A stretch of 57,625 nucleotides of DNA, from positions 1 through 57,625 of the forward strand of contig MHDC01000038.1 in NCBI GenBank assembly GCA_001803415.1, written 5' to 3'. Below, one piece after another: positions 44,654 to 57,625 of the stretch (within the stretch, counting starts at the first letter, position 1; each line of letters begins with the position of its first letter). The position numbers were made by a program, and so were the translations under genes. This DNA is from Microgenomates group bacterium RBG_16_45_19 (lineage in GTDB: Bacteria > Patescibacteriota > Microgenomatia > UBA1400 > RBG-16-45-19). The notes beneath the pieces were generated by a model. It was not told the DNA's origin and did not search any database. It saw only the letters and a list, made by a program, of their open reading frames with translations.

Positions 44654-46228
44654 TTATTCCAAATTATTCGCCAGCGTGATCAAGTCGTTTAACGAGGCTT
44701 TGGTCGAACTGATAAAGATCAAAACATTAACTCTGGTCGTATACATCACCGCTCTTAAAGCCCCCTTAGAATTAATTGTTTCCAGGGTATAAGCGGTGTC
44801 TTGGGTCGCTCCCGGCACTAACACTGCCGCCGGCGACGCCATCCCAGTCAGCAAGCCTGAGGCAAACTGGGCCGTGGCGAAGCCTGGGGGCACGTCTACC
44901 TGGCGTAAAATGATCGGCGATGGTCCACCCCTCTGGCTTTGCTGCCCTAAGGGATAATCAAAGGTGACTTGCACAAAATCAGTCCGGCCGTTGAGCATGC
45001 CTTCACCTTGATTGATCCGGTACTGGGTTTTATAAGTCCGGCCACCCGGAATAGCTTTGGGTTTATATAAATTGAAACTGACTTGTTCCTCCACCGCCGA
45101 AAAAGCGTAATTGTCGCTAAAAGCAAAAGCGTAGGCGCCCCCGAGTAAACCGCCGATAATGAAAATGCTAAAAAAGGTAAACAAACTCACCATCGCTTTA
45201 CTGTTCCGGTTATTATAGCTGCCGGTTGACCTAAACCAAGAAAAACAGACTGCGGTTAAGATCGCTAACGCCAAAAACGCGTATTGGTAAACAAAAATTC
45301 CTTTTATTAAAAAATTAATCAAGTTAGCTGGTAGGTTGAGGTTAGCGGTCGCGAGGTTGGTTAATGGCTCCAGTTGAACCGACATTAACCGGCGGGTCAT
45401 CCCGACCATGATTGGAGCGCCTAAGGCCACCATCACTCCCAACACCCAGCCGGTTCTGGAGCTTTCTTTCAGGTAAACACTCGCCCAAAAAGAGGCAATC
45501 GCCGCCAACAGTAACATCAACGGTAACGCTCCCAAAAGCGGTGCTTCCTTTAAAAAGGCAAAAGCTAAGGCTTGACCTTCTAGCAAGAACCGGTTGAACT
45601 GATAGCCAATCAAGAGCAATCCCAAGCTGATCAATAAATAGAATCCCCCCATCAGTAAATAAATCAGACTTAAGCCTCTGGCTAATACCGGTGCCGTTTC
45701 CTGGGCGGAGATGATTGTCCCGCCCATCGTTTGCGGTGGTGGGATGACCGCGGCTGCCGGCGGGACGGTCATGACCGGTTTTAACGGTGGTTTGACCGTC
45801 GTTGGCACCGCGGTTACCTGAGTCGGTGCCGGTTTATAAATGTTTACCACTACCGGTTGGGGGGCAATGAGCGGTGCCGTTTCGGTGGCTGGTTTAACTG
45901 GATAATAAATTCCCGGAAGATTAGGAGTCGTGGTAAATTGACCCGCGATCTTAGTCGGTGTTGTGGCTGCTTCCAGGGGTGGGGGGGATGCCTGGTTCTG
46001 CACCACTTGGGGGTATTCGACTGGTTTTATGGGCGCCGATGGGGTTAACCACGCCGGTACCGCTGCTGGCGGCTGGTTACTGATCGGTTCATACAAACTC
46101 GCCAATTGAGGCAAACCGGCTGCCGGGGCGGGGTTGATGGGCTCTTCGTACTCTAACCCCAATTCTGGGGCCGGAGGCAGACCAAAACCACCCACCGCTG
46201 GCTTAACTGCCTGGGCAGGGTCATTCAT
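44654..46228 (-). CDS. Membrane protein with Pro-rich N-terminal domain, unknown function
   Basis: Long Pro/Ala-rich N-terminus then about five TMs. Start MNDPAQ at ATG 46228, 24 nt downstream of ORF-track start. Confidence 0.65.
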   Translation of the reverse strand: MNDPAQAVKPAVGGFGLPPAPELGLEYEEPINPAPAAGLPQLASLYEPISNQPPAAVPAWLTPSAPIKPVEYPQVVQNQASPPPLEAATTPTKIAGQFTTTPNLPGIYYPVKPATETAPLIAPQPVVVNIYKPAPTQVTAVPTTVKPPLKPVMTVPPAAAVIPPPQTMGGTIISAQETAPVLARGLSLIYLLMGGFYLLISLGLLLIGYQFNRFLLEGQALAFAFLKEAPLLGALPLMLLLAAIASFWASVYLKESSRTGWVLGVMVALGAPIMVGMTRRLMSVQLEPLTNLATANLNLPANLINFLIKGIFVYQYAFLALAILTAVCFSWFRSTGSYNNRNSKAMVSLFTFFSIFIIGGLLGGAYAFAFSDNYAFSAVEEQVSFNLYKPKAIPGGRTYKTQYRINQGEGMLNGRTDFVQVTFDYPLGQQSQRGGPSPIILRQVDVPPGFATAQFASGLLTGMASPAAVLVPGATQDTAYTLETINSKGALRAVMYTTRVNVLIFISSTKASLNDLITLANNLE

Positions 46229-46279
46229 ACCCTTAAGTATACCCAACTCCAAGTTAAAGTTTACCGTTAAATTTTTTCA

Positions 46280-46308
46280 TTGACATATCCGTTACAATAA
46301 AATAAGCT
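46280..46308 (+). promoter_or_regulatory. Candidate promoter
   Basis: TTGACA, 17 nt spacer, TAAGCT; SD AGGAGG before ATG 46351. Confidence 0.4.
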
Positions 46309-46350
46309 TTCCTGTCCAAGTGTGATCACCTGTCGTTAATTAGGAGGCCT

Positions 46351-46842
46351 ATGCTCTTCGCTTTGATTATTTATCTTCTCTCTCAGTTATCTCCTTACCC
46401 TTCTGCTTCGGTGGCCCCCGTTATTTACCCACTACCGCCGGCCAAATCGGCGCCTCTGGGCGCCGCCCAAGCTACCCCGACTTTAAAGCCTCCGGCTTCA
46501 CCTTTAAATCCAGAGACTCCCCCTAAAGCTCAGGCCGAAAATTTGGCCAGTGGCCAGGTGATCAAGTCGGTGCCAGAAGTGGCCATCAGCCGGTCGCCAG
46601 TGCTGATTCCCTGCCTAATTGATTTACGTAATTGTGAACCCACCGGTAAACCTAAACCGACTCCAACCCCTTTGCCTAAAGTCGAGCCGACCGCCCGCCC
46701 GCTACCGAGGCTGACCCTGAAACCGGAACCGTTACCAATTGAGCCCATTTCCCCTCTTCCCACCGGCTGCCCTCGTCCGGTAAATTATAAATTAGATCAA
46801 CCAGATATCTATATACCTGAGTGTCCCCTGGAATCTATCTAA
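46351..46842 (+). CDS. Secreted Pro-rich protein, unknown function
   Basis: N-terminal hydrophobic signal then Pro-rich low-complexity; good SD (TTAGGAGG). Confidence 0.6.
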   Translation: MLFALIIYLLSQLSPYPSASVAPVIYPLPPAKSAPLGAAQATPTLKPPASPLNPETPPKAQAENLASGQVIKSVPEVAISRSPVLIPCLIDLRNCEPTGKPKPTPTPLPKVEPTARPLPRLTLKPEPLPIEPISPLPTGCPRPVNYKLDQPDIYIPECPLESI

Positions 46843-46845
46843 TCC

Positions 46846-47361
46846 ATGCCCGTTCGTCAACTCTACTCACCCCCCCAAATTCAACGCAGCATTAACCGCT
46901 TGGCTAAACAAATCGCCGCCGATTATCGGGGTAAACCGCTGATTTTAATCGGTATTCTCCGTGGTGGCTTCATTGTCTTGGCTGACTTAGTTCGGGCTTT
47001 ATGGTTGGCCGGTCATCATGATTTAGATATCGATTTTATTACTACTAGTAGTTATTTAGAGAGTAATATTTCGGCTCAAGTACCACCCAAGATTATCGTT
47101 GATTTAAACCGGAGTCTGGCTGGTCAGCATGTTTTGATTGTTGAAGATATCTGTGATACTGGCCTGACTCTTAACTTAGTCCAAAAGCAGCTTCGGGCGG
47201 CCGGACCCAAATCCTTAAAAACCTTCACCTTTCTTGATAAACCCTCCCGACGTCAAGTCCCGGTTAAACTTGATTATATTGGCTTTACCGTCAACGGTTG
47301 GATCGAGGGTTATGGCCTGGATGCTGATCGGGCTTGTCCCTCAGTTGTGGTCAAAACCTAA
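46846..47361 (+). CDS. hpt: Hypoxanthine phosphoribosyltransferase
   Basis: LILIGILRGGFIVLADLVRAL, VLIVEDICDTGLTLNLVQKQL. Confidence 0.93.
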   Translation: MPVRQLYSPPQIQRSINRLAKQIAADYRGKPLILIGILRGGFIVLADLVRALWLAGHHDLDIDFITTSSYLESNISAQVPPKIIVDLNRSLAGQHVLIVEDICDTGLTLNLVQKQLRAAGPKSLKTFTFLDKPSRRQVPVKLDYIGFTVNGWIEGYGLDADRACPSVVVKT

Positions 47362-47362
47362 A

Positions 47363-47890
47363 TTACCGGATAAATAGGAATGCTGCGGTTTGATTAACGA
47401 TCTCCCCGCAACCATAAGTCCACTCGGCCAGTAGATTGTCTCGGTGTCCGCCACTCTCAATCCAAGCTTGGACTACGGCCGCCGTGGATACATCCGTCCC
47501 CCACCATAAATTTTCGGCGCTGGCTGAATGAGGCATCGCTTTAATTGCCTCCAGGTAACCGCTATGGTCTAAATTCCGGCCGACTGCTGCCGCCCGCCCT
47601 CTTGCTGCCTCACATAAAGCCGTCAATGGCTTTAACTCTGATTTGCCCTGTTGTCTTCGGTAATCATTCACCGCCGCTAGTAAGGGGGGAGTTGGCCGCT
47701 CCATCTGTCTCGCCGGTGGTCCGGTTGGTATTGGCGTCGGTGCTTCTGGTCTGGCTATGAGTGAGCTGATCGTGGCTTCAGGCTTATGCTGATAGTAGAC
47801 ATCACTGTAATTGGTTACTTTTGGCCAACTGGTAATAGTCATCATCCCCAAACTTAATTTCACCATGACCTCGGTCCATTGGTTTATCAT
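47363..47890 (-). CDS. CAP (SCP/PR1)-domain protein
   Basis: AAVNDYRRQQGKSELKPLTALCEAARGRAA..LDHSGYL..SAENLWWGTD..VQAWIESGGHRDNLL. Confidence 0.88.
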   Translation of the reverse strand: MINQWTEVMVKLSLGMMTITSWPKVTNYSDVYYQHKPEATISSLIARPEAPTPIPTGPPARQMERPTPPLLAAVNDYRRQQGKSELKPLTALCEAARGRAAAVGRNLDHSGYLEAIKAMPHSASAENLWWGTDVSTAAVVQAWIESGGHRDNLLAEWTYGCGEIVNQTAAFLFIR

Positions 47891-48000
47891 TCAATAAATT
47901 AAATAATTAAACAATACTTTAAAATAACCACACATCCACCCAAAATTCAACCGCATTTACCTATACCCTCAAGATACTTTTCTTAAGTTATAATACGCAC

Positions 48001-48453
48001 ATGAAACCCATCAAATCACTTATCCAAACCTACCCTTATCGGACTGTCGCTTTGATTCAGTCACTGATCGCTACCGTCGGTAGTTTATTCCTTAGCCAAG
48101 TTTGGCTCTTAGTCCCCTGTGAACTGTGTTGGTTTCAACGGATCTTTATGTATCCCCTACCATTTATTCTGGGGATCGGTTTGATCAGACGGGAAACTAA
48201 ACTTTATCAATATGTCTTACCCCTCAGTTTGATTGGTCTAACCATCGCCGCCTACCATACCTATCTCTACTATTACGCTAACTATTCTCTCAACGGTGCC
48301 AACGAGACCGTCATGATCGCTTGCAGCGGTGGTGTCTCCTGTACTAATCAACTGATTGAATGGTTTGGGTTTATTACCGTCCCCTTGCTCTCATTTCTTG
48401 CCTTCTCAGTTATCACCCTAGCCATGCTCAAGGAACGCCACGACTCCATCTAA
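48001..48453 (+). CDS. dsbB: DsbB-family disulfide bond formation protein
   Basis: Four-TM protein with VPCELCWFQRIFMYPLPFILG and the second Cys pair (CSGGVSC). Confidence 0.92.
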   Translation: MKPIKSLIQTYPYRTVALIQSLIATVGSLFLSQVWLLVPCELCWFQRIFMYPLPFILGIGLIRRETKLYQYVLPLSLIGLTIAAYHTYLYYYANYSLNGANETVMIACSGGVSCTNQLIEWFGFITVPLLSFLAFSVITLAMLKERHDSI

Positions 48454-48470
48454 TCAATAGCTTTCCCTTG

Positions 48471-48571
48471 GTCGCAATTACTGAACGAAGCTCGAACCTT
48501 TATTGAACGAAACTCCGACTGATTGCCGCGCTTTGCGCGGCATAAACTGAACGCTCAGGCGGGCTAAAAGG
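48471..48571. repeat. ~101 bp inverted repeat, copy 1
   Basis: Reverse complement of 53326-53426 with two observed mismatches; contains the 8 bp-stem palindrome TGCCGCGC-TTT-GCGCGGCA. Confidence 0.97.
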
Positions 48572-49602
48572 TAAGATAATAATGATTCAGCTCCTTGGTT
48601 TAGGTTGATTCCTTTTTCCTCTAATCCGTCATATACTCCACCTGTATTCTGATCAACCATTCTAGCCCCCAAAATATTTCTCCCATGATACCAATCGAGA
48701 GCTTTTTGGGCCCAATCTAAATATTTTTTTTCTTTGGTAACCGAAAACGCTTCGGTGCAGGCTTCCACCACTGAACCCGCCTCAATCGGTTGTTGCACGA
48801 AAAGAGCTTTTTTGCCGTTTTTTTCAAACCACCCTCGATAACCCGGAAAAGAAAAACAGTCTAATTTTTTGTCATAAATCTGTTCCAGTAATAAATCTAA
48901 AGATTCCTTAGCGATATTCAAATATTTTATATTGCCAAAAACTGAGTAAGCCCAAAACAAAGCCCATGGCAATCTCCCAATATCATATGTAATCTTATCC
49001 TCAAACCATCTCCACGAAATGTCAGAGTTTTTTTCGTAGCTGGTTATTAATTCATCAGATAATATTATTGCCATTTTTTTAAAGTCATATTTACTCATCT
49101 GTCCAATTTTTTTTTTGGAGATTTTAACCTTTATATAATTTTCTAACACCGATCCCAGTTTGGAGCTACACTGATCTCTCACCAATAGACCGTAAATCAA
49201 CCATGCCTTGCTCCTAAGGGATTCTACCTTTTCGATATATTTTACGTACTGATCAAATAAGAACATGCCTGTCAGTTTCTGGTCATCCCTTAACCCCAGT
49301 TTTATAGTATCCGCTAATCCCGCCATTGCCCGGCCAAAATTTTCTCCAATGGACTCATTTTCCCAAACCAAATTCTGATTCAGATCATTCTTATAACTAT
49401 ATTTCCCAGCAGCCGATACTAAAAATTTCAAGTAAATATCAACCAATTTTTCCTCTTTCAATCGAAGTGCCACCTGTAAAGCTCGCGCATTATCATCCAC
49501 GCAGTACCCCTCCCGCAAATCTGGCGTAGCTATCAAACAATGCTCTGCTATCCCGACCATGTCCGTCATCCGATAAAGGTGATCAAGCTTTGGTTTATTC
49601 AT
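48478..49602 (-). CDS. Glycoside-hydrolase-like (alpha/alpha-barrel) protein
   Basis: 374 aa; HCLIATPDLREGYCVDDNARALQVALRL, QQPIEAGSVVEACTEAF, GVYDGLEEKGINLNQGAESLLSYLLARL; next to GT4 genes. C-terminus encoded by repeat copy 1. Confidence 0.75.
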   Translation of the reverse strand: MNKPKLDHLYRMTDMVGIAEHCLIATPDLREGYCVDDNARALQVALRLKEEKLVDIYLKFLVSAAGKYSYKNDLNQNLVWENESIGENFGRAMAGLADTIKLGLRDDQKLTGMFLFDQYVKYIEKVESLRSKAWLIYGLLVRDQCSSKLGSVLENYIKVKISKKKIGQMSKYDFKKMAIILSDELITSYEKNSDISWRWFEDKITYDIGRLPWALFWAYSVFGNIKYLNIAKESLDLLLEQIYDKKLDCFSFPGYRGWFEKNGKKALFVQQPIEAGSVVEACTEAFSVTKEKKYLDWAQKALDWYHGRNILGARMVDQNTGGVYDGLEEKGINLNQGAESLLSYLLARLSVQFMPRKARQSVGVSFNKGSSFVQ

Positions 49603-50626
49603 GTTTTTCCTTTGCCTTCAAAATTTCTTGATATACTTTTTCATAATTATCTACCATTCGTTCCACCGTAAAGTTTTTATCTACTCTTTCCCTACAATTT
49701 TTCCTGGAAATTAGGTCAATATTTTTCATAGCCCGTTCTGCTTCTTTGAGATTTTTAACAACAAAGCCCGTTTTTCGATCGTCAATTACTTCAGGAATAG
49801 ACCCCAATTCCATTCCGATAACGGGTGTCCCAGTTACCATCGCCTCAATGAGAGTTAAGCCAAATCCTTCGGGGTAGGTGTTTAAATGAAGAAAGCCATA
49901 AGCGTTTTTCAACAGAGCTTTCTTGTCTTCCTCGTCGACTAATCCTACATATTGGATTTTAGAATTTAGATGAGGTTTGATTTCTTTTTCAAAGTATTCT
50001 TTATTTTCTGAAGCGATAAGGCCGGCAATTTTTAGGTTAGCGTTTAGTTTTTTTACCAACTTTATCGCATTATGGACACCTTTATCCGGAGATATTCGAC
50101 CGATAAAACAAAAATAATTATCTGGCTTACCGTTATACGGGTACTCGTTTACCGGAATACCGTGATAAATATTGGCTATATAATTTAAATCCGGTGCGTG
50201 TTTTCGATCGGCATAGCTTATTGAAACATAATGGGTATTTGAATATTTTTTGTAAATTTGGATAACTTGCGGAGAGGAAAAACCGTGGATGGTAGTAACA
50301 ACGGGGGTTTTAACCAGTTTTGAGAAAACAAGCGGGTAAGCATCGTAGTGATTATGGATAATATCGTATTGATCTGAGTCTTCAAAAACCGAAGCCGTAT
50401 GAAGGTATTGATAAACTCTTGGTTCTAAACCGGAGTTTTCCATTATCGGTTTAGGACAGACCCATTTTAACCGGGCAGTAGTTACCGAATCTCCTGTTGC
50501 GTAAAGAGTTACTGTATGGCCGAGTTTCACCATTCCTTCTGCGATACGACTGGCAATTAATTCCCACGGGCCGTATGTAGTCGGAGGAGTTCTCCAATGA
50601 ATTGATGAAAGAATAGCAATTTTCAT
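49595..50626 (-). CDS. GT4-family glycosyltransferase
   Basis: YICFIGRISPDKGVHNAIKLVKK-type motif (FCFIGRISPDKG), NTYPEGFGLTLIEAMVTGTPVIGMELGSIPEVIDD. Confidence 0.93.
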   Translation of the reverse strand: MKIAILSSIHWRTPPTTYGPWELIASRIAEGMVKLGHTVTLYATGDSVTTARLKWVCPKPIMENSGLEPRVYQYLHTASVFEDSDQYDIIHNHYDAYPLVFSKLVKTPVVTTIHGFSSPQVIQIYKKYSNTHYVSISYADRKHAPDLNYIANIYHGIPVNEYPYNGKPDNYFCFIGRISPDKGVHNAIKLVKKLNANLKIAGLIASENKEYFEKEIKPHLNSKIQYVGLVDEEDKKALLKNAYGFLHLNTYPEGFGLTLIEAMVTGTPVIGMELGSIPEVIDDRKTGFVVKNLKEAERAMKNIDLISRKNCRERVDKNFTVERMVDNYEKVYQEILKAKEKHE

Positions 50627-50631
50627 TACGT

Positions 50632-51819
50632 TTATTTTTTTAAAATAGTAATTGTTTTAAAAAGATCGAGGTATCGAAGTCCTATATTTGACCAGGTCAT
50701 TAACCTTCCGTAATCGTACGCTTTTTGGCTAATTTTTTCTTTTTTATCCTGATTTTCCCACAATTCTATTACCGCAGAAGCAATCGAGTCAGCGTCCTGA
50801 AAAGGAACAAGAATACCTCTGGTATTGTTTAGAACCTCCTTCGCATATAAATATGGGGTGGAAATACAACATTTTCCTGCGCCTAGGGCATAAGCAAGCG
50901 CTCCGGAGGCAGCTTGTTGGGGATCAAGATACGGGGAGACATAAAAATCAATGGTTTTTAACCAATCGATTAATTCGTCAAGCGAAAGATATTTGTTAAC
51001 AAATTTGACATTCTTTTCTATTTTTAGTCTTTTTATTTCCTTTTCAAGAAAATTGCGGTATTCTTCGCCGTTAGTTTGTAAAAATACCGGGTGTGTTTGT
51101 CCGATTACTAGATATAAAACATTTGGATAAATTTTGGCGATAGTAGCCACGGCATCTAAAGCATACTCAATTCCTCTCGTTGGAGTTAATAGATTAATAT
51201 TACCAAGAATTATCTTTCCGGTAAGTTGTTTTTTCTCCTTATATGTATCTGTCGGAGCAAATGTAAAATCGGGCGTTCCGTGCGGGATGACTATAATTTT
51301 TTCTCTAGAGGCGCTATATGTATTGACCAATTTCTCCTTAATTTTTTCCATCATAACAACGACAGCATCCGATTTTTTAATTAACCTTTTTAAAATTGCT
51401 CCTTCCCGACTGTTTGGATCATCTAGTACGGTGTGGAGGGTAGTTACTAGCGGTTTTTTTAGCGATTCTACAAAAGGAATAATATATTCACCACATTGAC
51501 TGCCGTACAAGCCATATTCGTGTTGGAGTGAGATAATATCAGTACTCGATTGATTAATGTAGTTAGCTGCTTCAAGATAAGTATGTAACTCCTCTTGTTT
51601 AATTTTGTATTTTACTTCCCACGGGTAATTTATACGCTCTTTTGGCCTTGTGGTGGCCATAATTTCTGCCAAATTATGAGGATTAAGTAAGTTGATCGCG
51701 TTAGTTAAATCTTTTGTATAAGTGGCAATACCACACTTACGGGGTATGTATGAAGAAAGGTAAATAACCCTAATTTCTTTAGACTTTGAAGTTAAAAGTT
51801 TTTCTAAGTTTTTTGTTAT
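50632..51819 (-). CDS. GT4-family glycosyltransferase; true N-terminus extends beyond ORF-track TTG start at 51672
   Basis: In-frame upstream translation KEIRVIYLSSYIPRKCGIATYTKDLTNAINLLNPHN is the typical GT4 N-terminus. No ATG/GTG/TTG before the in-frame stop; first post-SD codon candidate is ATA 51819. Start uncertain. Confidence 0.8.
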   Translation of the reverse strand: MTKNLEKLLTSKSKEIRVIYLSSYIPRKCGIATYTKDLTNAINLLNPHNLAEIMATTRPKERINYPWEVKYKIKQEELHTYLEAANYINQSSTDIISLQHEYGLYGSQCGEYIIPFVESLKKPLVTTLHTVLDDPNSREGAILKRLIKKSDAVVVMMEKIKEKLVNTYSASREKIIVIPHGTPDFTFAPTDTYKEKKQLTGKIILGNINLLTPTRGIEYALDAVATIAKIYPNVLYLVIGQTHPVFLQTNGEEYRNFLEKEIKRLKIEKNVKFVNKYLSLDELIDWLKTIDFYVSPYLDPQQAASGALAYALGAGKCCISTPYLYAKEVLNNTRGILVPFQDADSIASAVIELWENQDKKEKISQKAYDYGRLMTWSNIGLRYLDLFKTITILKK

Positions 51820-51959
51820 ACTTGAGATCCTTCCTTTACTTGCGTTTCATCTCGTTGAGAAATCAGCCCATAATATACCACTAATCTTCCATTTTGTACA
51901 ATTGTGCCGGTTGGAAAAACTACATTGTTTGTTTGTCCTATCTTTTCTTGAGCTGCGTC
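51816..51959 (-). pseudogene. C-terminal remnant of a second GH130-like protein
   Basis: Translates to DAAQEKIGQTNNVVFPTGTIVQNGRLVVYYGLISQRDETQVKEGSQV*, homologous to KASWEKSGVTNNVVFPTGAVVRDKRLYIYYGAADK of the intact neighbour. Confidence 0.88.
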
Positions 51960-52951
51960 AACAGCTCTGTGAGGTCAACAGATTTAGCGGCGATTAACTT
52001 GTCAGCAGCCCCATAATAAATATAAAGTCTTTTATCTCTTACTACTGCTCCGGTAGGAAAGACAACATTATTTGTAACACCACTTTTTTCCCAAGAAGCC
52101 TTTGGGGAAAACAGAGGTTCTTTTAATCGCCCCAAAACTTTTAGGGGATTTTTGAGATCAAGTAGGGCAGCGGAGGCGTGATAGATTTTTCCAAAAGGAG
52201 AATCCTGCACCGCATGATAGATAATAAGCCATCCGTCTTTTGTTTCGATAGGGGGACAACCACCGCCAATGTTGCGGTTTTCAAACCAAAAAAGAGGATC
52301 AAGTACAATAAAATCACCTAAATTCTTGAAATAATTGCGCCAGCAGTCTTTTGTAAGTTCGGAGAAATTATTAAAGTAAACAATTTGGATTCCGGGTAAT
52401 ATTCGGTGGAGAAGAGCAAATTTATGATTGAATTTTTGGGGAAAGAGGGAGGCGTCTTTTTCAAATAGCAGAATGTCCTTGCCTTCCCTTTCTTTATAGA
52501 GCATTTCGAACATGGTATATATTTCTCTGACTTTTGACTCGCGAAAAATGTCTTCCGCTTCATCGTAAGAGATTTTCGGCGAGATAAGGCCTTGTTTGGC
52601 GAAATGGACAAGATCTTTACTTGTGGCGTAGGCAATAAGAGCATTTTTACCGTAATGGGCAGTATAGAGAAGGTAATATGTTCCTTCTAAAAGAGTAATT
52701 CTGGGATCTTCTACACCTTTTTTCTCATAATCATATTCCTGGGATAAGATTGGCTCTTTAAGTCTTTTTACAACTTTATTATCTTTCAGCTGGCAGTAGC
52801 CTATGGAAGAAACATCATTGCGGTTAATTGCCCGATAAAACATGTGGGTAATGTCATCCACCTGGATGCAGGCAGGGTTTAAAACACCTTTATTTTCGAA
52901 TTCCAGATTTGTTTTTTCTAAAATTATTCCCTCGTTTTTGACTGTAATCAT
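51938..52951 (-). CDS. GH130-like glycosidase/phosphorylase-family protein
   Basis: Five-bladed propeller-like repeats; GVEDPRITLLEGTYYLLYTAH, GGGCPPIETKDGWLIIYHAV, TNNVVFPTGAVVRDKRLYIYYGAAD. Confidence 0.88.
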   Translation of the reverse strand: MITVKNEGIILEKTNLEFENKGVLNPACIQVDDITHMFYRAINRNDVSSIGYCQLKDNKVVKRLKEPILSQEYDYEKKGVEDPRITLLEGTYYLLYTAHYGKNALIAYATSKDLVHFAKQGLISPKISYDEAEDIFRESKVREIYTMFEMLYKEREGKDILLFEKDASLFPQKFNHKFALLHRILPGIQIVYFNNFSELTKDCWRNYFKNLGDFIVLDPLFWFENRNIGGGCPPIETKDGWLIIYHAVQDSPFGKIYHASAALLDLKNPLKVLGRLKEPLFSPKASWEKSGVTNNVVFPTGAVVRDKRLYIYYGAADKLIAAKSVDLTELLTQLKKR

Positions 52952-52980
52952 AATCTTTAATTCCTCAATTGGTTAGACTT

Positions 52981-53208
52981 TTATTTACCCTGTAATTGAT
53001 AACCGGTTAATTCATCCAAACCAACCCCGAGGGCTTTCGCCATTTTCTTTAGCGTATCAAGCGTTGGGTTAATATTCTCGCCCTGCTCAATCTTAATAAT
53101 CGTGTTGTTGGCAACATCGGCGAGCTTGGCGAGACGATCTTGCGAAAGCCCCTTTTTCTCTCGTAGCTTCTTAAGATTTTTTGATAGCGGATATTCTTGC
53201 TTTGACAT
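52981..53208 (-). CDS. XRE-family HTH transcriptional regulator
   Basis: NLKKLREKKGLSQDRLAKLADVANNTIIKIEQGENINPTLDTLKKMAKALGV. Confidence 0.93.
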   Translation of the reverse strand: MSKQEYPLSKNLKKLREKKGLSQDRLAKLADVANNTIIKIEQGENINPTLDTLKKMAKALGVGLDELTGYQLQGK

Positions 53209-53284
53209 AGTTTATCTACATTAGTACTATTTTAATGATACTATAAAATACATTTTCAGTCAAAATATTCGGGAGCAATGATTT

Positions 53285-53319
53285 GTTGTGTGCGCACGGA
53301 TGGGCGGCGCAAACACAAC
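53285..53319. repeat. Imperfect hairpin beside inverted-repeat copy 2
   Basis: GTTGTGTGCGC - 11 nt loop - GCGC(AA)ACACAAC. Confidence 0.75.
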
Positions 53320-53325
53320 CCCCTT

Positions 53326-53426
53326 CCTTTTAGCCCGCCTGAGCGTTCAGTTTATGCCGCGCAAAGCGCGGCAATCAGTCGGAGTTTCGTTCAAAAAAGG
53401 TACGAGCTTCGTTCAGTAATTGCGAC
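53326..53426. repeat. ~101 bp inverted repeat, copy 2
   Basis: Reverse complement of 48471-48571 with two mismatches. Confidence 0.97.
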
Positions 53427-53449
53427 AAAGTTAGAACCGAATTTCGCAA

Positions 53450-53479
53450 TTGTTAGCTCGCTTTGCGAGCAATTATAAT
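53450..53479 (+). promoter_or_regulatory. Candidate promoter of GT2 gene with a palindrome in the spacer
   Basis: TTGTTA (53450-53455), 18 nt spacer containing GCTCGC-TTT-GCGAGC, TATAAT (53474-53479). Confidence 0.55.
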
Positions 53480-53510
53480 CTGATAAAATGATATCAAGAA
53501 TACAACAATT

Positions 53511-54221
53511 ATGAAACTAAATTTTCCTAAATCACCAGCCACCTCTTGGGTTATAAGGACGAAAAATGAAGAAAAATGGTTCGGTAAAGTTTTGGAAACC
53601 CTTTTTATGCAATCTAGGCTTGATTTTGAAGTGATAATCGTAGACTCCGATTCTACAGACAAAACTATCGAAATTACAAAAGACTTTCCGGTTCGAAAGA
53701 TTATTAACGTTTCTGAAAAAGACTTTAATTATAGCTATGCGCTTAATCTTGGAATTAAAGAGTCTTGGGGCGAATACATAGGAATTATTAGCGGCCATTC
53801 GCTTCCTATAAGTCGAACATGGTATCAGGATGGGATGAAGAATTTTGCTGACCCTAAAATGGCAGCAGTGACAGGTTGCTATACGGCATTACCCGATGGT
53901 TCCCTAGATGAGGAACTAGGCGATCTTCATTTTGATCAGAGACGACTGGAAAAAGAGTATTATTGCAAATGGATGACCAACACAAACGTAATTATCAGAA
54001 AGGATTTGTGGAGAAAATACCCATTTGATGAGAGGCTAGAAGAGTGTGAGGACTATGATTGGGCTTGTGAAATGATTGCAAGAGGATGGAATATTGTTAA
54101 AGACCCAAGATTCAACGTTTATCATTCTCATGGCGGGATTGGAAGATCAACTTACAGTGAAAGGGTTCCCACTTGGCAAAGGGTTTGTGCACTTATTGAT
54201 AAAAAGAAAAGACCGAGCTAA
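53511..54221 (+). CDS. GT2-family glycosyltransferase
   Basis: SWVIRTKNEEKWFGKVLETLFMQSRLDFEVIIVDSDSTDKTIEI; NTNVIIRKDLWRKYPFDERLEECEDYDWACEMI. Confidence 0.93.
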   Translation: MKLNFPKSPATSWVIRTKNEEKWFGKVLETLFMQSRLDFEVIIVDSDSTDKTIEITKDFPVRKIINVSEKDFNYSYALNLGIKESWGEYIGIISGHSLPISRTWYQDGMKNFADPKMAAVTGCYTALPDGSLDEELGDLHFDQRRLEKEYYCKWMTNTNVIIRKDLWRKYPFDERLEECEDYDWACEMIARGWNIVKDPRFNVYHSHGGIGRSTYSERVPTWQRVCALIDKKKRPS

Positions 54222-54240
54222 CCTTCTTGTAGAGGCATAT

Positions 54241-55161
54241 ATGGAAAATCAAATTAATGTTGGTAATCAAAATACCCAGCAAATCGGTCAAAATCCTATT
54301 AACCAAAATGTACAAACTACAGGAAATCCGAAGGTAAAATATTTGGCCTTAGGAATAGTGGTTTTTCTTGGATTTTTACTTTTTGGTCTTGGTGGGTATT
54401 ACTTTGGTAAACAGTCAACAAATTCCTATCAGGATTCAAAAAAAACAGCAAATCAACCTCTCCCCTCTTCGACTACTACTGAAGCTGACGACGCGGCCGA
54501 CTGGAAAGTATATTCAAATGAGAAGTATGGATTTGAAGTAAAATACGATCCTGAATCAAGTCCAACCGAACAAGTTGGAACCGAAGACACTGGTCAATTT
54601 ACATATTTACTATTGGTTAAATTTGGAACAAATCCGTTAAAATTTCCGCATGGCTATACATTAACAGTTAATAAACAAAAATCTTTAGATGACTATCGTA
54701 CGGAGTTAATTGGTCACAGCACTGACAAAATTGATTCAGAAAAAGAAACAACGACCAATGATAGTACTTGGACAAAATTAAATTATCAAATATTTCTGAC
54801 AACAGATTATATTCCTGTTACAACAGCAATTTTAAGCAAATCTGGATATAGTTATACTATAACTGCCAGCATACTAGATATTGACCAAATCCTTTCTACT
54901 TTTAAATTCAGAATAAAATACACTGACCTAAGTGAACTAAAAACTGCGGACGTACTTGTTCAAGATGGGTCGTACTACGGACCACCTTTCGATCCAGATT
55001 TATATCAACTTGAGATCGGACAATCAAATCATCTGTTTGCTAAAAGTGACACAGTAAATCTCAAACAGTATTTAGGTAAGCGTATTAAAGTTAGCTATCG
55101 AGAAATCAAGGGGATAGTAATGGGCGAACAACAATTAGTAATTGTTGAATCTGTTGATTAA
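54241..55161 (+). CDS. Membrane-anchored extracytoplasmic protein, unknown function
   Basis: MENQINVGNQNTQQIGQNPINQ..., one TM (YLALGIVVFLGFLLFGLGGYYFG), extracellular domain. Start moved from 54076 to ATG 54241 to avoid GT2 overlap. Confidence 0.75.
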   Translation: MENQINVGNQNTQQIGQNPINQNVQTTGNPKVKYLALGIVVFLGFLLFGLGGYYFGKQSTNSYQDSKKTANQPLPSSTTTEADDAADWKVYSNEKYGFEVKYDPESSPTEQVGTEDTGQFTYLLLVKFGTNPLKFPHGYTLTVNKQKSLDDYRTELIGHSTDKIDSEKETTTNDSTWTKLNYQIFLTTDYIPVTTAILSKSGYSYTITASILDIDQILSTFKFRIKYTDLSELKTADVLVQDGSYYGPPFDPDLYQLEIGQSNHLFAKSDTVNLKQYLGKRIKVSYREIKGIVMGEQQLVIVESVD

Positions 55162-55163
55162 AA

Positions 55164-55478
55164 GCGATTGCGGAGCAATCGCAAAAATCGCGCGCGCAAA
55201 AAATAATTGCGAAGAATTGGCATTCTTCGCAAAACGTGTCGGTTCGAACTTCTTTTTATCCAATCGGCAGCTCGCGGCCGAATATAAAAAGGGCTTCTCG
55301 GCGCTCCGTGCGGACGGCGGTGCACGGAGCGCCTCCACCCTTCCGGACTCTTTTTCTCTTTTGGTCGGCGTTCCTGGACGAATTGAGGAACGCCTGGTAC
55401 AAACTCAATTCTTTCGAGTTCAGTGTACCAAATATCGGTCGATTTCTCAATCCAAATCCAGCCTTACTCATTATGAGT
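55164..55478. repeat. Dense array of perfect/near-perfect inverted repeats
   Basis: Hairpins at 55164-55182, 55207-55232, 55253-55290, 55300-55333, 55367-55394, 55395-55430 and a small palindrome at 55466-55478. Confidence 0.9.
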
Positions 55479-55607
55479 TGAGGGGTATGGGTTGCCACGA
55501 GACCTTCATATTTTATGATTACTGAGTCCTTGTAAAACTGCAATGAATTTTTTCAAATTACCAGAGAACTTCTCCCCAAAATAAGCTATAATTGCAGATA
55601 GATTGAT

Positions 55608-56402
55608 ATGAAGAAAAATAAGACAGCAATTGTCACTGGTGGGGCGATGGGCTATAAAACTGGCGGCACTTCTATTGGCGGTGCAATCTCCATAAAACTT
55701 GCGAAAGAAGGCTTCAGCGTAATCGTCGTTGATTTAGGCGAAATGGGACAGAGAACGGTGGACGTTATTAAGAAAAATGGCGGGGACGGAATATTTCTCA
55801 AAGCAGATGTTACCAATACGGAGGAAGTTAATAAAATCATTGACACAATCAAATCAACTTATGGTAGTCTTCATTGTCTTGTAAATTGTGTTGCTCGTTA
55901 TAGCCCTGGTATGGGGAAAAATGTAGCTGACATTTCAGAAGAAGAATGGAATAAAACTCTTGAGGTGAATTTAAACGGGTATTTTAAAATGGCAAAGTAT
56001 TCGATTCCCTTGATGCTTGAATCAGGTGGTGGAACGATTATAAACATATCTTCAATTGAGAGCCAGGTAGTATTACCTAACTTCAGTGTTTATTCTGTCT
56101 CAAAGGCTGCTGTTGACGCATTAACCAGAACTATGGCTGTGGATTTTGCTCCCAAAATACGATCAAATTCTGTTGTGCCTGGCTTCGTAAAGATTGCCAA
56201 CTCAGAGAATAACAGAACCCCAGAACAGCTTGAGAAATGGTATAGCGATATTTCAAAGCAGTATCCAATGAAGCGAGTCTGTGAAGTCGATGAAATTGCA
56301 AATATAGTTGCGTTTCTGGCAAGTGACCAATCTTCTTACATCAACGGACAAGCGATCGTAGTGGACGGGGGCAAGACCATCGCTGACACTCACGAGTTTT
56401 GA
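55608..56402 (+). CDS. Short-chain dehydrogenase/reductase (SDR)
   Basis: TAIVTGGAMGYKTGGTSIGGAISIKLA; NCVARYSPGMG; YSVSKAAVDALTRTMAVDFAPKIRSNSVVPGFV; SSYINGQAIVVDGGKTIAD. Confidence 0.93.
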   Translation: MKKNKTAIVTGGAMGYKTGGTSIGGAISIKLAKEGFSVIVVDLGEMGQRTVDVIKKNGGDGIFLKADVTNTEEVNKIIDTIKSTYGSLHCLVNCVARYSPGMGKNVADISEEEWNKTLEVNLNGYFKMAKYSIPLMLESGGGTIINISSIESQVVLPNFSVYSVSKAAVDALTRTMAVDFAPKIRSNSVVPGFVKIANSENNRTPEQLEKWYSDISKQYPMKRVCEVDEIANIVAFLASDQSSYINGQAIVVDGGKTIADTHEF

Positions 56403-56493
56403 TTAAATATTTTATGTCTGATCGGTACCCCGTAAACTAAGACAATCTTCTACGACTCAGCGTTACAATACGGTCGTAAGAAAGGAGTCTTAA

Positions 56494-56595
56494 ATGCAGC
56501 GGAAAATGATCCCCAATTTGGAGATACTCGATACTTTTGTTACTGCATTGTTTGAGTTGAAAAGTTCTAACAAAAAGCCAGTTTTGGCTTCTTGA
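56494..56595 (+). CDS. Possible small protein (33 aa)
   Basis: MQRKMIPNLEILDTFVTALFELKSSNKKPVLAS* with SD AAAGGAG 8 nt upstream; TACAAT at 56464-56469. Confidence 0.4.
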   Translation: MQRKMIPNLEILDTFVTALFELKSSNKKPVLAS

Positions 56596-56637
56596 TAGTG
56601 TAATTATTGGCTCTTTTTGATATAATCCGAGTCAGGT

Positions 56638-56706
56638 TGATATAACCAGCCACTCAAGTTAGAATAATTTGAAACCGCCAGATTGGTTATATCAGTCAGG
56701 CGGTTT
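56638..56706 (+). promoter_or_regulatory. Overlapping alternative inverted repeats in a 5' leader
   Basis: TGATATAACCA (56638-56648)/TGGTTATATCA (56684-56694) and AAACCGCC (56672-56679)/GGCGGTTT (56699-56706). Confidence 0.6.
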
Positions 56707-56729
56707 GTTATTGAATGGAGGTGAATATT

Positions 56730-57050
56730 ATGGCAGAAGAAAGAGCAGGTTTCCAAAGACCACAGCCAACCCGAGATAACTGGACATCTCGGCTTAGGCA
56801 AGAACACGGTCTTCATACGGATGCATCAATGGAAGAAGTTGAGCAGAAGGCGATCTCTTTATTGGGAAGTCCTCCCACAGCAATTACTGGAGCTGAGTTA
56901 GTTTTAGGTCGTAGGGTAGATGCAGGAGATAAAGAAATTACACCCATAATTGCAACTCCTGGATTAAGTCCCGAAGACAGGTTTAGGCTTCTATTGTTAC
57001 GAAAATCTGTGGAGGATATGCAAGAAGAACAGGGTGGGGAAAAGGGTTAA
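56730..57050 (+). CDS. Hypothetical protein
   Basis: MAEERAGFQRPQPTRDNWTSRLRQEHGL from ATG 56730, SD GGAGGTGA at 56717. Confidence 0.6.
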   Translation: MAEERAGFQRPQPTRDNWTSRLRQEHGLHTDASMEEVEQKAISLLGSPPTAITGAELVLGRRVDAGDKEITPIIATPGLSPEDRFRLLLLRKSVEDMQEEQGGEKG

Positions 57051-57064
57051 GCCCTTGTGTCAAT

Positions 57065-57550
57065 ATGGAAGAAGAGCTTGATATAACCAAACTCAAGTAT
57101 GTTTTGTATGCTCGTAAATCAACCGAAGACGAAACGAGGCAGGTAAAGTCAATTGAAGACCAGATTGAAGAGTGTAAGATTTTTGCCAAAAGAGTCGGAA
57201 TAACTTTCGTTGATATTCTTCAAGAGTCGAAATCCGCCAAACGACCAAATAATCGCCCCATCTTCAGACAAATGCTTGATGACATCAAAGGAGGCAAATA
57301 TGACGGAATTTTATCATGGCACCCTGATAGGCTCTCCCGAAATATGCTTGAAGGCGGTGAAATCATTAACATGATTGACGAAGGGGTTATTCAAGACCTC
57401 AAGTTCGTGACTCACCATTTTACCAACGACGCCAGTGGAAAGATGTTACTCGGAATTGCATTTGTACTCTCGAAAGAGTTTTCGGATAAGCTATCTACTG
57501 ATGTTACGAGAGGAACAAGGAGAAGGCTCAATAACGAGGGCAGGATATGA
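57065..57550 (+). CDS. Serine recombinase, N-terminal catalytic (resolvase) domain only
   Basis: YVLYARKSTEDETRQVKSIEDQIEECKIFAKRVGI..FRQMLDDIKGGKYDGILSWHPDRLSRNMLEGGEII; stops at TGA after RGTRRRLNNEGRI. Confidence 0.88.
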   Translation: MEEELDITKLKYVLYARKSTEDETRQVKSIEDQIEECKIFAKRVGITFVDILQESKSAKRPNNRPIFRQMLDDIKGGKYDGILSWHPDRLSRNMLEGGEIINMIDEGVIQDLKFVTHHFTNDASGKMLLGIAFVLSKEFSDKLSTDVTRGTRRRLNNEGRI

Positions 57551-57625
57551 CCCCCAAAAACTGTACCGGTTCTAGTTCTCAAATCTTCGGTTAAACTTCG
57601 CTCGATTTAATTGGCGTTTTCATCT

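Follow-up and report, generated by a model that had tools for sequence, protein, structure and literature searches.

Inverted repeats around a glycan gene block in a Microgenomates contig probably belong to a family of tRNA-targeting serine recombinase elements

The window analyzed here is the entire 57,625-bp contig MHDC01000038.1 of Microgenomates group bacterium RBG_16_45_19, whose genome is a 1.37-Mb draft in 45 contigs with 4.2% contamination, and our subject is a block of glycan-related genes in it that is bounded by a long inverted repeat. A repeat search identified 48467-48571 and 53326-53430 as the sole inverted pair within 46000-57625 (105 bp, 97% complementary, 3 mismatches, spacing 4,754 bp), and chance is not a credible source of a likeness of such size. 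A preliminary description of the contig had given the repeat as 101 bp (48471-48571) with two substitutions, which is correct, and the match runs 4 bp further outward with one extra mismatch. As it had also stated, the genes between the arms all lie on the minus strand, the main open reading frames (ORFs) there being those of a C5-epimerase/GH76-like protein, two GT4 glycosyltransferases, a GH130 protein and an XRE regulator. Its AT-richer block of ~4.75 kb is indeed enclosed by the repeats but continues past the right arm: GC content drops from ~49% left of the left arm to 35-41% from that arm on and stays low until the contig end at 57625, so that the foreign segment exceeds the inter-arm block. 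We consider it very probable that an integrated mobile element has its cargo half at 48467-53430. This element would target tRNA genes by means of a large serine recombinase (LSR) and have the same anatomy as its relatives in other genomes.

The features of the window are listed below in the terms of that anatomy, with A arms for the inverted repeats around the cargo, M and M' for those around the LSR, core for the short sequence that equals the tRNA 3' end, and att for attachment sites.

48467..48571, plus strand: left A arm, interpreted as an attR-like element end (chromosome-core-A); repeat, core and GC change fall at the same point
48467-48474: left-arm core CTTGGTCG, the reverse complement of CGACCAAG
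48478..49602, minus strand: cargo, C5-epimerase C-terminal / GH76-like protein, its final codons inside the left arm
49595..50626, minus strand: cargo, GT4 glycosyltransferase
50632..51840, minus strand: cargo, second GT4 glycosyltransferase
51938..52951, minus strand: cargo, GH130 (beta-1,4-mannooligosaccharide phosphorylase family), E=1e-48
52981..53208, minus strand: cargo, XRE/HTH_3 regulator
53326..53430, minus strand: right A arm, interpreted as the A half of the inner attP (A-core-M') from repeat, core and family anatomy
53423-53430: right-arm core CGACAAAG
53431..53475, minus strand: possible M' remnant (M' being a copy of the LSR 3' end); a by-eye resemblance to LSR C-termini is no more than suggestive
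55142..55363, plus strand: LSR 3' end remnant; core TTTTGGTCG and a degenerate A-like half-site come after it, up to ~55400
57065..57550, plus strand: LSR catalytic domain (profile E=3.5e-50), truncated by a stop at 57548-57550 near the contig end

When the repeat was searched in its own genome and in relatives, as the preliminary description had envisaged, two copies and no more were found in the own genome, and among 380 genomes of Patescibacteria, the phylum of the window, a DNA search recovered relatives in 40, with up to 96% identity in other families. A MITE or dispersed repeat of the own genome was rejected on the ground of the two copies. The best-conserved part of the repeat is its outer 46 nt, and many of the matches form inverted pairs; integron attC sites were set aside, since the repeat lacks an attC-like fold and the conserved outer 46 nt are a DNA motif, not a hairpin. 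A scan of viral contigs for the repeat core gave zero matches. The fetched loci consist of units of 1.7-15 kb bounded by long inverted repeats, often with two units adjacent to each other, one carrying a serine recombinase and the other unrelated genes. The recombinase unit borders on tRNA genes with its outer end, and window-type arms carry at their tip a core that is identical to the tRNA 3' end (TGGTCG/CGACCA, TGGTGG/CCACCA, TTGGCGG/CCGCCAA, TGGCAGG/CCTGCCA).

The recombinase of the family is an LSR with Resolvase, Recombinase and zinc-ribbon domains. This domain set is present in the relatives and on contig C1 of the own genome, and the window keeps the catalytic domain alone, which lies right of the right arm in the expected direction; the serine-recombinase fragment to which the preliminary description drew attention is relevant. 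Public genomes were scanned with an alignment of six homologues and the best 80 of 531 relatives were used as the homologue set, mostly from Patescibacteria, with Omnitrophica and Bacteroidetes also present. Within the phylum the family LSR was found in 109 of the 380 genomes (~29%) at E <1e-60, and viral contigs gave five LSR matches, mostly weak or partial. An antisense tRNA with its 3' end abutting the LSR 3' end was present at 59 of the 72 loci with enough sequence, a tRNA on the LSR 5' side at 3 of 51, and inverted M arms on both sides of the LSR at 64 of 80, as compared with 0.9% for tRNA adjacency and 0.09% for inverted M arms in equally sized windows drawn at random from these loci. 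A second sample, which partly overlapped the first, gave 19/25 for tRNA adjacency and 25/30 for inverted M arms. The A-arm and M-arm repeats overlap by exactly 3-6 nt in 8 complete elements and the overlap is the tRNA 3' core, from which the order tRNA-core-M>LSR<M'-core-A>cargo<A'-core-chromosome follows. In these 8 elements the core is common to attL, attR and attP; the window shows just attR and the inner site (CGACCAAG, CGACAAAG).

A complete 2.8-kb sister element is located at tRNA-Lys(ctt) on contig C1 of the own genome (C1:19383-22250; locus L039, C1:19000-24000), with an LSR, A arms, one small cargo ORF and M arms of 103 bp that are 100% identical. Its LSR reading frame passes antisense through the tRNA-Lys (C-terminus ..SPEGFEPSTRRLRGVCSTTEL..); in the family the M arm overlaps the LSR 3' coding end and LSR C-termini read into antisense tRNA translations. 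Spurious-looking ORFs with motifs such as GFEPST or GSNLRPSVLE in L059, L061 and C1 (e.g. L061:4120-4440) are antisense tRNA translations, and such reading may explain motifs of this type in databases.

The zinc-domain motif of LSR attachment sites lies 5 bp further from the center in attP than in attB (Rutherford et al., PMC3783163). In the present family the T-loop motif of the tRNA reappears in the A arm, where its outward displacement is +5 bp in 13 and +6 bp in 17 of 37 loci (30/37 together), and this match to the attP/attB spacing points to A-core-M as attP and to the tRNA 3' end as attB. Judged by sequence, tRNA-core-M then reads as attL and A-core-chromosome as attR, and an intact predicted attP (A-core-M) is found inside every complete integrated element seen. 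According to the mechanism that we propose, the element would sit at the 3' end of a tRNA gene with a core of 3-7 nt equal to that 3' end, the 3' part of the tRNA would serve as attB with its T-loop sequence acting as the zinc-domain motif, and the LSR would recombine attP with attB to give attL (tRNA-core-M) and attR (A-core-chromosome). A second attP, inverted and intact, would remain between the LSR half and the cargo half, and excision at the outer sites would release a circle with two inverted attP sites that separate a recombinase half from a cargo half. The left arm of the window would be attR-like and the right arm would be the A half of the inner attP. Single-stranded fold-back integration via two inverted attP sites was rejected, because it would give hairpin-capped chromosome ends and not the observed order.

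The two halves might alternatively be independent transposon-like units, the cargo with its A repeats and the recombinase with its M repeats, each inserting on its own at tRNA 3' ends. Each unit does have an inverted repeat of its own, and there is a cargo-only or deletion form in which the tRNA 3' end is joined straight to the A arm without an LSR (L061, L064, L074, L094), cargo-only units at L061, L064 and L074 thus standing directly at tRNA genes. We nevertheless regard this alternative as unlikely, since the A and M repeats meet exactly at the shared core, A-core-M makes up a bipartite attP whose motif spacing is as it should be on the A side, and the tips carry tRNA cores with no target-site duplication beyond the core. 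If the halves belong to one element, as we prefer, the cargo-only units at L061, L064 and L074 may have arisen by deletion or may represent a non-autonomous form. A DDE transposon with terminal inverted repeats was rejected as well, as no transposase is among the cargo genes and no target duplication extends beyond the core.

The cargo is interchangeable, being a glycan set with GH130 in the window and often anti-phage defense elsewhere. Defense genes carried by relatives comprise type II and type III restriction-modification, an EcoRI-type methylase with a GmrSD/HNH nuclease, a Thoeris ThsB TIR protein and a CBASS-type cyclase; other cargo includes transporters, a radical SAM protein and an XRE plus ImmA/IrrE pair. 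This variability bears on whether the block is an invertible phase-variable cassette, in which recombination between the arms would flip the glycan genes relative to an outside promoter. Surface-glycan genes are typical of phase variation, the arms are inverted and 97% identical, and, as in invertons, they flank a co-directional block. Unlike in invertons, however, the arms of this family are half att sites at tRNA genes (their outer tips carry the tRNA core) and enclose unrelated cargo from genome to genome, and flipped forms are not known; moreover, the window holds no intact recombinase, and LSRs normally recombine only attP with attB unless a directionality factor is present (PMC3783163). 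We therefore judge an invertible cassette very unlikely. Of the two roles that the preliminary description had offered for the repeats, programmed inversion of the whole block is unsupported, and that of marking a mobile unit agrees with arms that are half attachment sites of a tRNA-targeted LSR element. Occasional flipping of the block through homologous recombination between the arms is possible.

For two members of the family, comparison with related genomes revealed an unoccupied site. In the closed genome G006 recombinase and cargo come after a tRNA-Ile. In its congener G029, likewise closed, a gene region that in G006 is found 5.8 kb off begins no more than 30 bp after the same tRNA-Ile; in G006 the tRNA-Ile and this shared region are also separated by ~0.5 kb containing a degraded HIT-like gene. 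Similarly, the tRNA-Pro next to which G074 carries an element of 15 kb is directly followed in G174 by 59 bp (90% identical) that in G074 are sited immediately beyond the far A arm; these 59 bp are similar to an M arm and are possibly the scar of an older element. For L064 and L095 the comparison in relatives lost synteny and established no empty site. Arms and tRNA were as expected in the single-contig genomes G168, G108, G006 and G137, although the far A arm was not found in G137, and the anatomy in closed genomes excludes an assembly artefact for the family. For the window itself one could suppose that a contig of 49% GC was chimerically joined to one of 38% GC via the repeat, in view of the sharp GC change at the arm and of a draft with 45 contigs and 4.2% contamination. 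We give this very little credence, because the same anatomy recurs in the closed single-contig genomes, contig C1 of the own genome carries the sister element with its M-core-A junction, and a GC difference is normal for acquired islands.

The two M arms of an element are far more alike than their divergence among elements would imply. Across 121 element pairs with recombinases at least 70% identical, median M-arm identity was 61% between elements and 100% within them, though one copy alone is coding, so that something must homogenize the two attP copies. This suggests that the copies share a common state, e.g., a circle that allows recombination, or that one is copied from the other. We see an even chance that these are widespread minimal mobile elements that pass through a circle with an inverted pair of attP sites (the 2-micron layout, here with a serine recombinase), that this pair is homogenized each cycle and needed for the life cycle (e.g., for LSR regulation, amplification, or an intact attP after integration), and that they are a major vehicle for defense and surface-glycan genes in Patescibacteria.

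Several points weigh against our interpretation. Both the circle and the recombination are predictions from the integrated structure. The strong bias in orientation (59 loci with the tRNA at the LSR 3' end, 3 with it at the 5' end) would not be expected of two equally active attP copies, which indicates that the two are not equally used; the copy upstream of the LSR might serve regulation. In the window, the M' copy at 53431-53475 was not confirmed by profile search, a tRNA search of the whole contig found none, and in place of an intact LSR there is a catalytic domain only; the nearest family query matches this domain at just 51% identity over 150 aa, and it may derive from a different element. 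The search for an empty counterpart of the window insertion was negative: matches to the DsbB-like neighbor in related genomes of the same order lack a nearby tRNA.

Tipping of the orientation the other way is seen at the rare loci L110, L114 and L124, which have a tRNA at the LSR 5' side (exclusively so in L114 and L124); integration or inversion via the other attP copy is possible there.

Right of the right arm the window contains, in order, GT2 and hypothetical genes, the LSR 3' end copy, an SDR gene and the truncated LSR catalytic domain, which may stem from the window element or from an adjacent one. The stretch 55142..55363 shares 73% identity with the LSR 3' end on contig C1 (profile match E=0.005), and 55142-55400 looks like a second attP-like junction, which suggests tandem or nested element remnants. 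In our reading, the window holds a cargo half whose ends are intact and to which remnants of one or more other elements are joined, and we infer that the LSR half of the window element was degraded or cut off by the contig end, with the tRNA beyond the contig. A tRNA-Pro is suggested as the putative target because of the CGACCA/CGACA core and a relic in G236, of the same order, where an A arm lies 0.3 kb from a tRNA-Pro.

The family resembles LSR integrative elements (prophages, IMEs, islands) in its Resolvase + Recombinase + zinc-ribbon LSR, in the logic of attP, attB, attL and attR and in the 5-bp motif shift between attP and attB (PMC3783163), and differs from them in the second, inverted and homogenized attP inside the integrated element, in an M arm that overlaps the LSR 3' coding end, and in having tRNA genes as usual targets. 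With the tRNA islands of tyrosine integrases (Islander; tycheposons) it shares insertion at the tRNA 3' end that leaves the tRNA whole and a small swappable cargo including defense genes; a serine recombinase and quadripartite inverted arms set it apart, and such an island or tycheposon was rejected for the present family on account of the recombinase type at the tRNA. The Islander abstract (PMC4383910) presents tRNA insertion as catalyzed by tyrosine integrases.

In the yeast 2-micron plasmid (FLP/FRT) two inverted copies of the recombination site split the circle into two unique regions. The circle proposed for the present family would likewise be split by two inverted sites; unlike the plasmid, the family uses another recombinase class and integrates into chromosomes, and there is no evidence of replication or copy-number amplification. 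No description of such elements was found in the open-licence literature, preprints and subscription papers being outside the scope of the search, and the inverted attP duplication appears to be undescribed so far.

To our knowledge, gene movement in the streamlined, mostly uncultured Patescibacteria is poorly known. Here, one recombinase family occurs in ~29% of sampled genomes and inserts mostly at tRNA 3' ends with swappable cargo. Its att sites are readable with nearly single-base precision, which yields hundreds of new serine integrases with predicted attP, attB and conserved tRNA targets, sets that would be useful for genetic tools in Patescibacteria, and the inverted second attP raises a clear new question.

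Twelve draft contigs (L102, L116, L117, L119, L127, L129, L133, L140, L148, L149, L151, L154) begin within the M' arm, a short way upstream of the LSR; assemblies thus break at the arms, and the family is probably under-recorded. Close LSR homologues also occur in records labeled Bacteroidetes/Flavobacteriales (L127, L128, L138, L141, L143, L174, L176) and Omnitrophica (L104, L108, L109), and several of these loci are tRNA-adjacent with M arms, reflecting either spread outside Patescibacteria or mis-binned contigs. In G168, which belongs to the same order as the window, two elements face each other ~1.6 kb apart in one tRNA cluster with tRNA-Leu and tRNA-Gln (L272, G168:C1:386000-405900). A palindromic repeat of ~28 bp has many dispersed copies on G006:C1, one of them adjoining tRNA-Pro. 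Within the window cargo, the 3' end of the GH130 gene is apparently partly duplicated at 51840-51960, the stretch that had been described earlier as a GH130 remnant.

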